DNA from: Cedecea neteri | GTDB lineage: Bacteria > Pseudomonadota > Gammaproteobacteria > Enterobacterales > Enterobacteriaceae | Length of the DNA: 64,000 nt | Assembly: GCF_000757825.1 (NCBI RefSeq) | Contig: NZ_CP009451.1 | Coordinates: forward strand, 2,232,001 to 2,296,000 | Direction: 5' to 3' | Part shown: one piece after another, positions 24,058 to 59,451 of the stretch | Numbering within the stretch: position 1 is the first letter of the stretch | Layout of the letters: each line of letters starts with the position of its first letter | Program-made: the position numbers and the translations under genes | The notes under the pieces: generated by a model | The model's input: only the letters and a program-made list of their open reading frames with translations | What the model was told of the DNA's origin: nothing | Databases searched by the model: none

Positions 24058-24075
24058 CACCCTCACCCCGGCCCT
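24058..24075. repeat. Left part of the REP repeat split by IS110 copy A (R5)
   Basis: CACCCTCACCCCGGCC-CT, the GGCCC-type outer arm. It continues at 25274 on the other side of the element. Confidence 0.85.
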
Positions 24076-24298
24076 TATGTCTTGAACTTCCCCGCCAGTG
24101 CGGGGAAGATCCCCGACTGATCATCGGGAGGTTGCCGGTGAGCATCCCCTGGCCCTGGTGCTTCCGAGCCCGTGGGAGAGATTATGCCCCGGCAACCTTA
24201 TTCCCTGTCGCCTCAAGACCGAACGGTATCCTGTGCCTCTGAGCACCCACATATAAGGATGGTCTGGCGATATTATTCATAAGGTTACGGAGAATCAG
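24076..24298 (+). ncRNA. Likely IS110 bridge RNA (copy A)
   Basis: The 223-base non-coding left end folds by eye into a 5' hairpin (CTTCCCCGC 24087-24095/GCGGGGAAG 24100-24108), a target-type loop closed by GTTGCCGG/CCGGCAAC (24131-24138/24189-24196), and a donor-type loop closed by AGACC/GGTCT (24216-24220/24261-24265). In the first loop CTGGCCCT (24149-24156) equals the left target CCGGCCCT except one G-U position, and GTGGGAGAG (24172-24180) is complementary to CTCTCCCAC, the right target. In the second, ACGGTATC (24223-24230) equals the element's right end and ATAAG (24253-24257) is complementary to its left end CTTAT. This is the layout known for IS621 bridge RNAs. Confidence 0.75.
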
Positions 24299-25258
24299 AT
24301 GACCCTCACTTCTGTCGGCGTTGATATTGCTAAGCTAAAATTTGATGTCGCTGTCCTGCTGCCTGGTCAGAAATACAAAACTAAAAAGTTTGCTAACACG
24401 CCTGCGGGATGTCGTGAGTTTATTCACTGGCTGACCCGCTTTGGGGACTGTCATGTCTGTATGGAAGCGACGGGCAGCTACAGCACGGAACTCGCCACGG
24501 CATTGTCCGATGGCGGCTATCGCGTCAGCCTGGAAAACCCTGCCCGCATTCATGCCTTCAGTAACACCGAACTGACCCGAAACAAAACGGATAAAAGCGA
24601 TGCCGCCCTGATAGCACGGTATTGTGCCCTGTATCAGCCAGCCCAATGGCATCCGGCTCCTCTCAGCCAGCGACAGCTGACCGCGCTGGTGCGGCATCTT
24701 AAAAATCTTGAAGAGATGCGTCAGATGGAAGAGAACAGGCTGGAGGCCGCAGATGAGGTCATCACTGGCTCGTTAAAAGAGCACATCGCCACGCTGGATG
24801 AACTGATAAAAGAAACCAAAAAGAAAATCAGACAGCACATTGATGATGACCCGGACCTGAGAAAAGACAAAGCGCTGCTGGAGAGTATCCCGGGAGTGGG
24901 AGATGTGCTGAGTACGAGTCTTCTGGCCTTCGCAGGAAACCTGAGGCGGTTCAGGAGCAGTAAGGCTCTGGTGGCTTATGCAGGGCTGAACCCACGACGT
25001 TGTGAGTCCGGGATGTGGAAGGGAAAGAGCAGGTTGTCAAAAGTGGGGAGCCGTGAGCTGCGTAGCGTGCTGTATATGCCTACGGTAGTGGCGGGAAGAT
25101 GTAATGAAGTGGTGAAAGACCTGATGACCCGGATGGCGAGCAGGGGGAAGACAGGCAAAGAACGCGTGTGTGCAGGAATGAGAAAGCTGCTACAGCTGGC
25201 TTATGGGGTGGTGAAATCAGGGCGTGAATTTAACGCTGAAATACCGCTTGCCGGATAA
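24299..25258 (+). CDS. IS110-family transposase, copy A
   Basis: A 319-residue DEDD-type recombinase: N-terminal RuvC-like domain starting GVDIAKLKFDVAVL (first Asp) with CMEATGSYSTELA (Glu) and KTDKSDAALIARY (Asp pair), a coiled-coil middle (LKNLEEMRQMEENRLEAADE), and the C-terminal Tnp-2 domain with the catalytic-serine region LLESIPGVGDVLSTSLLAF and GLNPRRCESGMWKGKSRLSKVGS. IS110 enzymes recombine donor and target under guidance of the element's own RNA. AAGG/GGAG lies before the ATG. It is intact and identical in protein to copy B, which suggests recent movement. Confidence 0.95.
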   Translation: MTLTSVGVDIAKLKFDVAVLLPGQKYKTKKFANTPAGCREFIHWLTRFGDCHVCMEATGSYSTELATALSDGGYRVSLENPARIHAFSNTELTRNKTDKSDAALIARYCALYQPAQWHPAPLSQRQLTALVRHLKNLEEMRQMEENRLEAADEVITGSLKEHIATLDELIKETKKKIRQHIDDDPDLRKDKALLESIPGVGDVLSTSLLAFAGNLRRFRSSKALVAYAGLNPRRCESGMWKGKSRLSKVGSRELRSVLYMPTVVAGRCNEVVKDLMTRMASRGKTGKERVCAGMRKLLQLAYGVVKSGREFNAEIPLAG

Positions 25259-25273
25259 CCGACAAGACGGTAT

Positions 25274-25382
25274 CTCTCCCAGAGGGAGAGGGGGAAAACA
25301 GGTGGCGGGGAACATGGTTTATCCCCTCTCCCTTCCAGGGAGAGGGTTAGGGTTAGGGTGAGGGAGAGGGTGAGGGTGAGGG
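25274..25382. repeat. Right part of the REP repeat split by IS110 copy A (R5)
   Basis: CTCTCCCAGAGGGAGAGGGG, spacer, CCCCTCTCCCTTCCAGGGAG, then an enlarged TAACCC-type arm in which GGTTAGG occurs twice and GTGAGGG-like units recur. With 24058-24075 it forms one double REP. Confidence 0.85.
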
Positions 25383-43648: not shown

Positions 43649-43756
43649 CCCTCACCCCGGCCCTCTCCCACAGGGAGAGGGGAAAAGAGTACTAAAAGAA
43701 AAGCGGTGGCAGTAGTTATTCCCTCTCCCCTATGGGGAGAGGGTTAGGGTGAGGGG
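43649..43756. repeat. BIME-like double REP between alsB and alsA (R6)
   Basis: CCCTCACCCCGGCCCTCTCCC / GGGAGAGGGG, spacer of about 40 bases, CCCTCTCCCC / GGGGAGAGGGTTAGGGTGAGGG. It shows the uninterrupted IS110 target (GGCC-CT-CTCCCAC). Inside an operon such hairpins often protect the upstream mRNA, which would favour the binding protein over the ATPase. Confidence 0.88.
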
Positions 43757-56023: not shown

Positions 56024-58171
56024 ATGAAAAAAGTCGTCACGGTTTGCCCCTATTGCGCCTCGGGTTGCAAGATAAACCTGGTGGTGGATAACGGCAAAAT
56101 CGTCAAGGCGGAAGGCGCACAGGGTAAAACCAACCAGGGCGACCTGTGCCTGAAGGGTTATTACGGGTGGGACTTTATCACCGACACCAAAATCCTTACT
56201 CCGCGTTTGAAATCCCCGATGATTCGCCGCGAGCGCGGCGGCAAGCTGGAAGCGGTTTCCTGGGATGAAGCGCTGGACTATGTCAGCTCTCGTCTGAGCG
56301 AGATCAAAGCCAAGTATGGCCCTAACGCCATTCAAACCACCGGCTCCTCACGCGGGACCGGCAATGAAACCAACTATGTAATGCAAAAATTTGCGCGCGC
56401 CGTTATTGGAACCAATAACGTCGATTGCTGCGCACGTGTCTGACACGGCCCATCGGTTGCAGGTCTGCACCAGTCGGTCGGTAATGGCGCGATGAGTAAC
56501 TCTATCGTCGAGATTGAGGATACTGATTTAGTCTTTGTGTTCGGGTACAACCCGGCAGATTCACACCCTATCGTGGCTAATCGCGTGATTAAAGCGAAGC
56601 AGAAAGGGGCACAGATTATCGTTGTCGATCCGCGCAAAATTGAAACCGCGCGCATTGCCGACATGCATTTGAGGTTACGAAACGGCTCTAACATCGCGCT
56701 TCTGAACGCGATTGGCCACGTCATTATTGAAGAGAACCTTTACGACCACGCTTTCGTAGCGGCTCGTACCGAAGGCTTCGAGGAGTATCGCAAAATCGTT
56801 GAAGGCTACACGCCGGAGTCCGTCGAAGAAATCACTGGCGTCAGCGCCGGGGAGATCCGTGCGGCCGCGCGTATGTATGCCAAAGCCAAAACGGCCACCA
56901 TCCTGTGGGGCATGGGCGTGACCCAGTTCTACCAGGGCGTGGAAACCGTGCGCTCGCTCACCAGCCTGGCGCTGATGACCGGCAACCTTGGCAAACCTAA
57001 CGTGGGCGTGAACCCGGTTCGCGGCCAGAACAACGTGCAGGGCGCCTGCGATATGGGCGCACTGCCGGATATGTTCCCCGGTAACCAGTACGTTCGTGAC
57101 GCGGAAACCCGCAGCAAATTTGCTACTGCCTGGGGCGTTGACGCGCTGCCGGAAGCCAACGGTTACCGCATCAGCGAACTGCCTCACCGCGTAGAACATG
57201 GTGAAGTCCGTGCCGCCTATATTATGGGTGAAGATCCGCTGCAAACCGATGCCGAGCTTTCTGCGGTGCGCAAAGCGTTTGCCGGACTTGAGCTGGTGAT
57301 TGTGCAGGACATCTTCATGACCAAAACCGCCGCCGAGGCAGACGTTATCTTACCGTCAACCTCCTGGGGCGAGCATGAAGGGGTCTTCACCGCCGCCGAC
57401 CGTGGCTTCCAGCGCTTCTTTAAGGCGGTTGAGCCGAAGTGGGATCTCAAAACGGACTGGCAGATTATCAGCGAAATCGCCACCCGCATGGGCTACCCGA
57501 TGCGCTACAGCAACACCCAGGAAATTTGGGACGAGCTGCGTCATCTGTGCCCGGACTTCTACGGCGCGACCTACGAGAAGATGGGCGAGCTGGGCTATAT
57601 CCAGTGGCCTTGCCGGGACACTTCCGACGCGGACCTGGGCACCTCTTATCTTTATGAGAGCAAGTTCGAGCGCCCTAACGGCCTGGGGCAGTTCTTCACC
57701 TGCGACTGGGCACCGCCTATCGATCGCATCACCGACGAGTACCCGATGGTGCTTTCCACGGTGCGTGAAGTCGGCCACTACTCCTGCCGTTCAATGACCG
57801 GCAACTGTGCCGCCCTGGCCGCGCTGGCCGATGAGCCGGGTTATGCACAAATCCACGTCGAAGATGCCGCCCGGCTGGGCATTGAAGATGAAGCGTTGAT
57901 TTGGGTGAATTCGCGTAAAGGCCGGGTTATCACCCGGGCTGCGGTCAGCGAGCGTCCGAATAAAGGCGCGGTGTACATGACCTATCAGTGGTGGATTGGT
58001 GCCTGTAATGAGCTGGTGACGGAGAACCTTAGCCCGATAACCAAAACGCCGGAGTACAAGTACTGCGCCGTGCGCGTCGAGCCGATTGCCGATCAGCAGG
58101 CCGCCGAGCAGTATGTGATTGATGAGTACAGCAAGCTGAAGGCCCGTCTGCGCGAGAGCGCGAGAGGATAA
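56024..58171 (+). CDS. fdhF: Formate dehydrogenase H, selenoprotein
   Basis: A 715-residue molybdopterin enzyme whose reading frame runs through an in-frame TGA at 56441-56443, giving selenocysteine at residue 140 (NNVDCCARV-U-HGPSVAGL), as in E. coli FdhF of equal length. The N-terminal 4Fe-4S cysteines are C8, C11, C15 and C42 (VCPYCASGCK; DLCLKGYYGW). It oxidises formate to CO2 within formate hydrogenlyase on the cytoplasmic side. A SECIS hairpin follows the TGA. The start at 56024 has GGAG seven bases before it; a plain ORF finder would split the gene at the TGA. It is not a pseudogene. Confidence 0.96.
56441..56482 (+). promoter_or_regulatory. SECIS element of fdhF
   Basis: The bases from the TGA on (with CGGTTGCAGGTCTGCACC in the loop part, including the SelB-contact GGTCT) match the known bacterial fdhF SECIS. 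It directs SelB-tRNA-Sec to the TGA. Confidence 0.88.
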
Positions 58172-58176
58172 TACAT

Positions 58177-58253
58177 CCCCTCACCCTAACCCTCTCCCCA
58201 TAGGGGAGAGGGGATAAAGAACATGTTTTCCTCCCTCGCCCCTTTGGGGAGAG
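58177..58253. repeat. REP repeat split by IS110 copy B (R9, left part)
   Basis: CCCCTCACCCTAACCCTCTCCCC / GGGGAGAGGGG, spacer, then CCCTCGCCCCTTTGGGGAGAG up to the element border. The TAACCC arm is intact and faces fdhF; the GGCCC arm is on the far side of the element at 59452-59468. Confidence 0.85.
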
Positions 58254-58268
58254 ATACCGTCTTGTCGG

Positions 58269-59228
58269 TTATCCGGCAAGCGGTATTTCAGCGTTAAATT
58301 CACGCCCTGATTTCACCACCCCATAAGCCAGCTGTAGCAGCTTTCTCATTCCTGCACACACGCGTTCTTTGCCTGTCTTCCCCCTGCTCGCCATCCGGGT
58401 CATCAGGTCTTTCACCACTTCATTACATCTTCCCGCCACTACCGTAGGCATATACAGCACGCTACGCAGCTCACGGCTCCCCACTTTTGACAACCTGCTC
58501 TTTCCCTTCCACATCCCGGACTCACAACGTCGTGGGTTCAGCCCTGCATAAGCCACCAGAGCCTTACTGCTCCTGAACCGCCTCAGGTTTCCCGCGAAGG
58601 CCAGAAGACTCGTACTCAGCACATCTCCCACTCCCGGGATACTCTCCAGCAGCGCTTTGTCTTTTCTCAGGTCCGGGTCATCATCAATGTGCTGTCTGAT
58701 TTTCTTTTTGGTTTCTTTTATCAGTTCATCCAGCGTGGCGATGTGCTCTTTTAACGAGCCAGTGATGACCTCATCTGCGGCCTCCAGCCTGTTCTCTTCC
58801 ATCTGACGCATCTCTTCAAGATTTTTAAGATGCCGCACCAGCGCGGTCAGCTGTCGCTGGCTGAGAGGAGCCGGATGCCATTGGGCTGGCTGATACAGGG
58901 CACAATACCGTGCTATCAGGGCGGCATCGCTTTTATCCGTTTTGTTTCGGGTCAGTTCGGTGTTACTGAAGGCATGAATGCGGGCAGGGTTTTCCAGGCT
59001 GACGCGATAGCCGCCATCGGACAATGCCGTGGCGAGTTCCGTGCTGTAGCTGCCCGTCGCTTCCATACAGACATGACAGTCCCCAAAGCGGGTCAGCCAG
59101 TGAATAAACTCACGACATCCCGCAGGCGTGTTAGCAAACTTTTTAGTTTTGTATTTCTGACCAGGCAGCAGGACAGCGACATCAAATTTTAGCTTAGCAA
59201 TATCAACGCCGACAGAAGTGAGGGTCAT
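58269..59228 (-). CDS. IS110-family transposase, copy B
   Basis: A 319-residue DEDD recombinase identical in protein to copy A (24299-25258); see there for domains. The one base difference seen (GCG against GCA for Ala in SLLAFAGNL) is silent. The gene is intact. Confidence 0.95.
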   Translation of the reverse strand: MTLTSVGVDIAKLKFDVAVLLPGQKYKTKKFANTPAGCREFIHWLTRFGDCHVCMEATGSYSTELATALSDGGYRVSLENPARIHAFSNTELTRNKTDKSDAALIARYCALYQPAQWHPAPLSQRQLTALVRHLKNLEEMRQMEENRLEAADEVITGSLKEHIATLDELIKETKKKIRQHIDDDPDLRKDKALLESIPGVGDVLSTSLLAFAGNLRRFRSSKALVAYAGLNPRRCESGMWKGKSRLSKVGSRELRSVLYMPTVVAGRCNEVVKDLMTRMASRGKTGKERVCAGMRKLLQLAYGVVKSGREFNAEIPLAG

Positions 59229-59451
59229 CTGATTCTCCGTAACCTTATGAATAATATCGCCAGACCATCCTTATATGTGGGTGCTCAGAGGCACAGGATA
59301 CCGTTCGGTCTTGAGGCGACAGGGAATAAGGTTGCCGGGGCATAATCTCTCCCACGGGCTCGGAAGCACCAGGGCCAGGGGATGCTCACCGGCAACCTCC
59401 CGATGATCAGTCGGGGATCTTCCCCGCACTGGCGGGGAAGTTCAAGACATA
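59229..59451 (-). ncRNA. Likely IS110 bridge RNA (copy B)
   Basis: Same sequence as copy A by eye. The target-type loop is at 59331-59396, with guide-like CTGGCCCT at 59371-59378 and GTGGGAGAG at 59347-59355 (minus strand). The target used here reads CTCTCCCCA, pairing with seven of the nine right-guide bases next to the core. Confidence 0.72.

Follow-up and report, generated by a model that had tools for sequence, protein, structure and literature searches.

An IS621-type element of Cedecea neteri whose predicted bridge RNA may read both common flavours of a REP-like repeat through wobble pairs

How does a mobile element that lies in many copies of one host repeat recognize its sites, and can a single RNA guide serve repeats that differ from one another? 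The question is raised by an element in a 64,000-nucleotide stretch of the Cedecea neteri genome (contig NZ_CP009451.1, positions 2,232,001 to 2,296,000, hereafter the window). Elsewhere in the window there are a tRNA (1013-1085) and a SECIS_2 match of 85.8 bits (56436-56490), so that a selenoprotein gene is likely nearby. The element and its immediate surroundings comprise the following features.

24076-25275, plus strand: IS110-group element, 1,200 bp with one CT core included; ends defined by 14 copies that differ in their flanks.
24074-24075, plus strand: left CT core, derived from the target (flank alignment).
25274-25275, plus strand: right CT core (flank alignment).
24066-24075, plus strand: left target half CCCCGGCCCT, in the flank of the window copy.
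25276-25282, plus strand: right target half beyond the core, CTCCCAG, in the flank of the window copy.
24076-24298, plus strand: left non-coding end, encoding the predicted bridge RNA (fold, aligned left ends).
24299-25258, plus strand: recombinase, 319 aa, PF01548 and PF02371 (domain search, alignment of nine proteins).
24079-24084, plus strand: left subterminal inverted repeat, GTCTTG.
25263-25268, plus strand: right subterminal inverted repeat, CAAGAC.
58252-59451, minus strand: another copy of the element, identical at 1,199 of 1,200 positions and likewise inserted in a REP-like site.

The recombinase contains a DEDD_Tnp_IS110 domain (PF01548, E 1.5e-27) and a Transposase_20 domain (PF02371, E 4e-23). 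When it is aligned with eight relatives, residues D9, E56, D98, D101 and S237 are invariant; by analogy with IS621, we take them to be the catalytic set. Two related chains are found in the PDB, those of ISCro4 (9t56, 256 bits) and of E. coli IS621 (8wt6, 252 bits). In the host genome, a single contig of 4.88 Mb, the element end occurs 14 times at 99-100% identity, and all of these copies share the CT core and a fixed insertion point, with no longer duplication. The non-coding ends measure 223 nt on the left and 17 nt on the right, the long-left, short-right layout of the IS110 group, and the domains, the end lengths and the fixed site with its shared dinucleotide core are all those of a member of this group. 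The 17-nt right end and the 6-bp repeat do not fit the IS1111 group. The E. coli collection gave no match to the element at megablast sensitivity, the plasmid collection gave matches of 64% identity in two Fukatsuia plasmids only, and the family search found no match at E 1e-30 in four congeners. The element is another IS621-type, bridge-RNA member of the IS110 group, and the mechanism itself has been known since the work on IS621 in 2024.

The predicted RNA of the left end is laid out as follows.

24087-24108, plus strand: 5' stem-loop, CUUCCCCGC-CAGU-GCGGGGAAG (fold).
24130-24197, plus strand: target-binding stem-loop, outer stem GGUUGCCGG/CCGGCAACC with compensatory changes.
24147-24156, plus strand: left target guide CCCUGGCCCU (also as CCCTGGCCCT), predicted to pair with the left target in 14 of 14 copies.
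24172-24180, plus strand: right target guide GUGGGAGAG (also as GTGGGAGAG), predicted to pair with the right target.
24208-24270, plus strand: donor-binding stem-loop (fold, aligned left ends).
24223-24230, plus strand: left donor guide ACGGUAUC (also as ACGGTATC), same letters as the right end at 25267-25274.
24249-24257, plus strand: right donor guide ACAUAUAAG (also as ACATATAAG), discontiguous pairing with CT+TATGT.

Each loop therefore holds two segments, the target loop CCCUGGCCCU and GUGGGAGAG and the donor loop ACGGUAUC and ACAUAUAAG. The left target guide repeats the letters of the left target up to wobble, and the left donor guide those of the right end of the element; the right target guide is complementary to the right target and the right donor guide to the left end of the element. 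The original prediction, made from the letters of the window, had placed guide-like loops in this end, and the segments are found where it put them. The right half of the target is CTCTCCCAG and not CTCTCCCAC as it had claimed, so that at the window copy the right guide pairs at eight of nine positions. The identity that it saw between the left donor guide and the right end is exact, and the complementarity of ATAAG to the left end is real, but the match is longer than proposed: ACAT-AT-AAG against CTTATGT, nine nucleotides to seven bases with interruptions. None of 20,000 first-order Markov simulations of the 223-nt end contained all four segments in any order, although single segments did arise (left target 9-mer with at most one mismatch, 2,144; right target 8-mer, 197; left donor 8-mer, 35; right donor 5-mer, 2,900).

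The strand folds into the 5' stem-loop and further stem-loops, with a z score of -3.04 against shuffles, 2 of 200 of which were equal or better. The structure was scored on 13 aligned left ends, the window included, and was drawn from the window copy, which biases the counts in its favour; 72.5% of cells are paired, against 60.1% in shuffles. Cells changed on both sides numbered 50; shuffles gave 21.3, none of the 500 reaching 50, and sliding the structure gave 8-31. The 14 pairs that show such a double change and the 33 pair types are less unusual, their numbers being reached by 50 and 49 of 500 shuffles, respectively. Changes on both sides occur in seven of the nine pairs of the outer target stem across the 13 aligned sequences. 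Of the six helices, four are well supported (74-100% paired), namely the outer and inner stems of the target loop and two stems of the donor loop; support is poor for the upper target stem, with 41% of its cells paired, and for the lowest donor stem, with 52%. The automatic consensus fold recovered 9 pairs only, and no Rfam family reached its gathering score on the left-end RNA; a covariance model (R1) was set aside, the outer target stem being poorly aligned in its alignment. Several stems of the predicted bridge RNA are in this way conserved through compensatory changes, and its target and donor loops are predicted to be able to pair with both halves of the site and with both ends of the element. 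Might the left end be only a regulatory 5' region, or an antisense RNA for the transposase? Small RNAs are described as regulators of the ISPpu9 transposase in the portion of that work available to us, but such a function predicts neither matches to the target and to both element ends nor their covariation, and we consider it scarcely credible here.

All 14 copies are located at one point of a REP-like repeat, CCC[Y][R][R]CCC-CT^CTC[C/T]C, each copy being flanked by ...CCC[C/T][G/A][G/A]CCCT on the left and CTC[C/T]C on the right with a CT core on each side. As had been proposed, then, the target is REP-like; it is the 5' arm of a high-copy repeat. With its flanks joined, the window copy reads CACCCTCACCCCGGCCCTCTCCCAGAGGGAGAGGG, the inner 24-mer of which is intact in 3 of 30 fetched host repeat loci. 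Intact host sites that fit CCCYRRCCCTCTCYC, with a YRR middle, number 153, and the pattern read backwards gives none; the YRR pattern was chosen only after the occupied sites had been seen. With any middle triplet there are 170 sites, 17 of them non-YRR, and the absence of non-YRR sites among the 14 insertions is a count too small to tell. Next to the window copy the inverted partner of the occupied arm is preserved.

25338-25352, minus strand: inverted partner REP-like arm CCCTAACCCTCTCCC, intact (genome 2257338-2257352).

Such inverted pairing is common, with 21 pair sightings in the 30 fetched loci (most pairs seen twice) at a spacing of 33-147 bp, and 13 of the 21 sightings combine a TAA arm with a CGG arm. 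The window itself contains 12 intact CCC-YRR-CCCTCTCYC repeats between 12114 and 58198, for example at 43655 and 43735; eight of them form four inverted pairs, and two adjoin occupied sites. Across the 23 genomes searched, the pattern has 81-212 matches in each of eight of the genus (our host included), 20 in one other and none in 14. The repeat is unlike the GTAGG-type REPs of enterobacteria, as far as these are described in the accessible part of PMC2817692, and a full-text literature search with one 21-base form of it returned, from the text that it covers, one paper only, which treats a different subject.

Measured against the 10 nt of CCCUGGCCCU, the left target of every one of the 14 copies can pair through Watson-Crick or wobble pairs with no true mismatch; nine copies have one wobble, five have two, and none is exact. 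On the right, the core plus five bases can pair in all 14, in one case with a G-T (L012), the outermost base pairs in none, and the last two both fail in seven. The guide letters U, G and G stand at the variable repeat positions Y, R and R, so that both common flavours, CCCCGG and CCCTAA, would be readable through one or two wobbles. The alleles were typed by hand at the first 100 sites listed of the 153, a set that is no random sample: TAA 42, CGG 30, CAG 11, CGA 5, TGA 4, TAG 3, CAA 3 and TGG 2. UGG alone of the 64 triplets reads all 100 by Watson-Crick or wobble pairs, being exact for two, and it is the sole triplet that covers all eight YRR alleles. Compared with this background, neither the wobble count of the insertions (at most one versus at least two, P 0.09) nor their split between CGG and TAA (P 0.10) differs significantly.

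A relative in another host (G337), whose protein is 80% identical, provides a comparison. Its left guide, CCCUAACCCU, has UAA at the variable triplet, and six of its six targets are CCC[T/C]AACCCT (TAA in four, exact; CAA in two, with one U-dG). In G337 most of the variation of the repeat falls on the first position: of its 269 sites, the 100 listed first, again hand-typed and not a random sample, are CAA 47, TAA 41, CAG 7, CGA 3, CGG 1 and TAG 1, and the UAA guide fits the TAA and CAA flavours. Judged by pairing potential, each guide thus fits the common flavours of its own host. UGG would also read 100 of the 100 listed G337 sites, and the contrast between UGG and UAA is therefore consistent with adaptation and no proof of it. 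Wobble pairing would be what makes sites of the CGG and TAA flavours usable, and selection for guide degeneracy is plausible. The more general proposal, that the guides of natural bridge RNAs become wobble-degenerate in evolution, following the polymorphism of a host repeat family and not one single target, with U for C/T and G for A/G, we put forward tentatively, as somewhat short of an even chance.

To what extent guides follow targets can be seen among relatives. The set comprised 201 loci whose recombinases are related, among them the element's own copies and places that were fetched twice. The left boundary was taken as a CT core followed by T[AG]T[AG]T, with the best-matching 9-nt stretch sought 60-111 nt downstream; an automatic search for the two ends jointly had returned chance solutions among the true ones and was dropped. 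This rule excluded 40 loci and kept 161 with an IS621-type left boundary; from 68 viral loci fetched, 62 of them with a protein hit, it excluded 53 and added nine boundaries. The 89 distinct guide-target pairs match at seven of the seven non-core positions in 34 cases, at six in 25, at five in 17, at four in nine and at three in four. With the register as found and related elements treated as independent, 55 of the 80 distinct guides agree with their own target at six or more of the seven non-core positions, against 7.0% of swapped pairs (same scanning rule, one locus each). The original prediction had looked to such covariation across homologues for support, and it is present; together with the layout and the compensated stems, it bears out the reading as an IS621-type bridge RNA. 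The same prediction had counted identical loops at unrelated targets as evidence against itself; poor pairs, below five of seven, are a minority (13 of 89). Its suggestion that the target code could be new holds for the target sequence, which differs from that of IS621, and fails for the pairing code, which is the known one with more wobble.

The covariation also bears on whether the recombinase recognizes the REP palindrome itself, the loop matches being incidental. A 2006 study suggested, in the part accessible to us, that transposases recognize palindromic REPs (PMC1525189), but relatives whose guides differ are inserted at different sequences, which match their own guides, and IS621 has been reprogrammed experimentally through its loop; recognition of the palindrome is accordingly most improbable. 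The poor pairs include one Rickettsia guide with mismatched targets at L019, L020 and L045 and matched ones at L033, L036 and L054, and the G147 copies L084, L163 and L164, where the left flank of L163 resembles the right end of the element itself. Some of these may be rearranged or decayed flanks, and one could suppose that the guide-target differences in general are mutations of the flanks after insertion. However, the alleles found at occupied sites are ones that intact repeats of this genome ordinarily carry, and decay predicts target T opposite guide C to be as frequent as target A opposite guide G, which were seen in 2 of 191 and 11 of 120 cells, respectively, at the five-of-seven cut. 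We therefore regard flank mutation as very unlikely to be the general cause. Two further observations concern the relatives. In L016, L073, L074, L077, L080 and L128 the final letter of the left target guide is A instead of the T of the CT core, so that the second core base would stay unpaired, and in L060 and L162 (G147) the left end is partly duplicated in tandem, the guide loop included.

A more serious alternative is that the guide is merely inherited or has drifted, that the recombinase accepts one or two mismatches whatever their kind, and that the degeneracy is accidental. We counted the kinds of mismatch in the 89 pairs after the register of L047-L049 had been moved by hand to that of their sibling L046. 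At six or more matches of seven there are 13 wobbles against one reverse transition, which speaks for wobble, and 11 transversions, which speak for general tolerance. Without the window element and G337, 10 wobbles to one reverse remain (P 0.017), and without position -9 as well, seven to one (P 0.07). At five or more matches the ratio is 18:5 (P 0.02), falling to 14:5 without these two elements (P 0.09) and to 10:5 when position -9 is also removed (P 0.29), and in the full set transversions (32) outnumber wobbles (18); the excess outside the clade is thus weak at this cut. The viral loci contribute 0:0 at the stricter cut and 1:1 at the looser one. These P values use a swapped baseline of 119 wobbles to 93 reverse transitions and ignore the kinship of the elements, and they are approximate, since a rescanned swapped null (62 to 56 at six or more matches, 752 to 509 at five or more) differs from that baseline. 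That insertions resemble the background in their wobble count, as described above, is also what indifference to the kind of mismatch would give. Against it stands the rarity of the guide-exact allele, which occupies 3 of the 153 intact YRR sites of the host and 4/168, 4/84, 6/137, 3/142, 4/94, 5/81 and 7/212 sites in seven congeners. A second such case is G069, whose guide GGUAAGUCCU has the targets GGCAAGTCCT and GATAAGTCCT, neither of them exact.

IS621 itself argues in the same direction. We fetched 18 E. coli loci out of 60 rows listed, and 17 of them carry the IS621 guide AUCGGGCCU. Opposite the guide G at position -6 the target has A in 16 of these 17 copies and G in one, the latter with a transversion at -7; two of the 17, in the same gene, show a difference of the reverse type (C to T) at -3. 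The 18th locus is another element, with one wobble. In the parts of the sources open to us, the IS621 loop is reported to encode ATCGGGCCTAC, whereas ATCAGGCCTAC is the sequence matched by 129 of 173 insertion sites, which gives an rG:dT pair (Durrant et al., PMC11208160), and the structure paper names the pair G53-T11* (PMC11208158), so that a single rG:dT pair in IS621 was already known. For guides with wobbles at several positions, or for rU:dG, we found no statement in the accessible parts of PMC11208160, PMC11208158 and PMC11187229, subscription literature being mostly outside this scope; the word 'wobble' is absent from these three papers, and 'G-U wobble' from the related literature searched. 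Taking both sides together, we judge indiscriminate tolerance to be the less probable account of the mismatches, though by no means a remote one.

The reading that we consider very probable, on the strength of the letters, is that of an IS621-type element whose predicted bridge RNA can pair with the target and with the element's own ends, whose target is the 5' arm of the REP-like repeat and whose guide can read both flavours by wobble. By analogy with IS621, the element would be excised as a circle, the junction of which would rebuild a promoter from which the bridge RNA is made. The RNA-bound recombinase, four subunits with RNA in the synaptic complex, would then recombine the circle with a chromosomal repeat, the two being joined at the CT core. 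The element is assumed to follow the IS621 pattern in its transcription, in RNA binding and in recombination. One part of a split promoter may lie at the right end.

25248-25253, plus strand: TTGCCG, a -35-like box, candidate part of a split promoter.

Across the junction, this box would be followed by a 17-base spacer and TATCTT (25271-25275 plus 24076). The best junction match is 8 of 12, and an unrelated match at the integrated left end also scores 8 of 12, which makes the junction promoter match weak evidence.

The element offers a case of REP targeting by a bridge RNA with 14 natural insertions, from which pairing rules can be read as they occur in nature. The less expected part is a wobble-degenerate guide that fits a dimorphic host repeat. 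If this degeneracy has been selected, guides could be designed to cover families of related sites, the prediction of off-targets of bridge recombinases would have to count rG:dT and rU:dG as near-matches, and the element would be an example of a mobile element adapting its guide to the repeat repertoire of its host.

Among known systems, IS621 is like the window element in its DEDD/Tnp recombinase, the left-end bridge RNA with target and donor loops, the CT core, the REP target and an rG:dT guide-target pair. The right donor pairing is also shared: in IS621, too, nine nucleotides of the bridge RNA are paired, with interruptions, to seven donor bases (PMC11208160, in the part available to us). 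The two differ in the target, which here is CCCYRRCCC-CT-CTCCC; in the right guide, which in IS621 is described, in the part of the source we could consult, as pairing over 4 nt, compared with the core plus five bases in all 14 copies here; and in the use of both repeat flavours with up to two simultaneous wobbles, rU:dG included. ISCro4 has the same layout and a recombinase 44% identical to ours, and the G355 element encodes the same 326 residues as ISCro4; its guide AUCAGGCCU, unlike ours, is exact for four of the five G355 places read, the fifth having target C opposite guide A. The IS110-like element of G337, of the same family, shares the donor ends and the repeat family and differs in the left guide, CCCUAACCCU instead of CCCUGGCCCU, matching the flavours of its own host. 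The elements of the IS1111 group, with their seekRNAs, likewise combine a DEDD transposase with an RNA guide and subterminal inverted repeats, but there the RNA is in the right end and the repeats are 7-17 bp, whereas the window element has its RNA in the left end and a 6-bp repeat. Repeats of 2-3 bp, shorter than these 6 bp, have been reported for the IS110 group; 7-9 bp were found in L018, L126, L127, L128 and L226, five of 42 rows, a tally that is only indicative, as the right end is probably misplaced for several. The repeats of the window element lie 3 bp from the end that encodes the RNA and 7 bp from the opposite end if the core is counted, which mirrors the 7/3 extensions described for IS1111 in the accessible part of PMC11187229.
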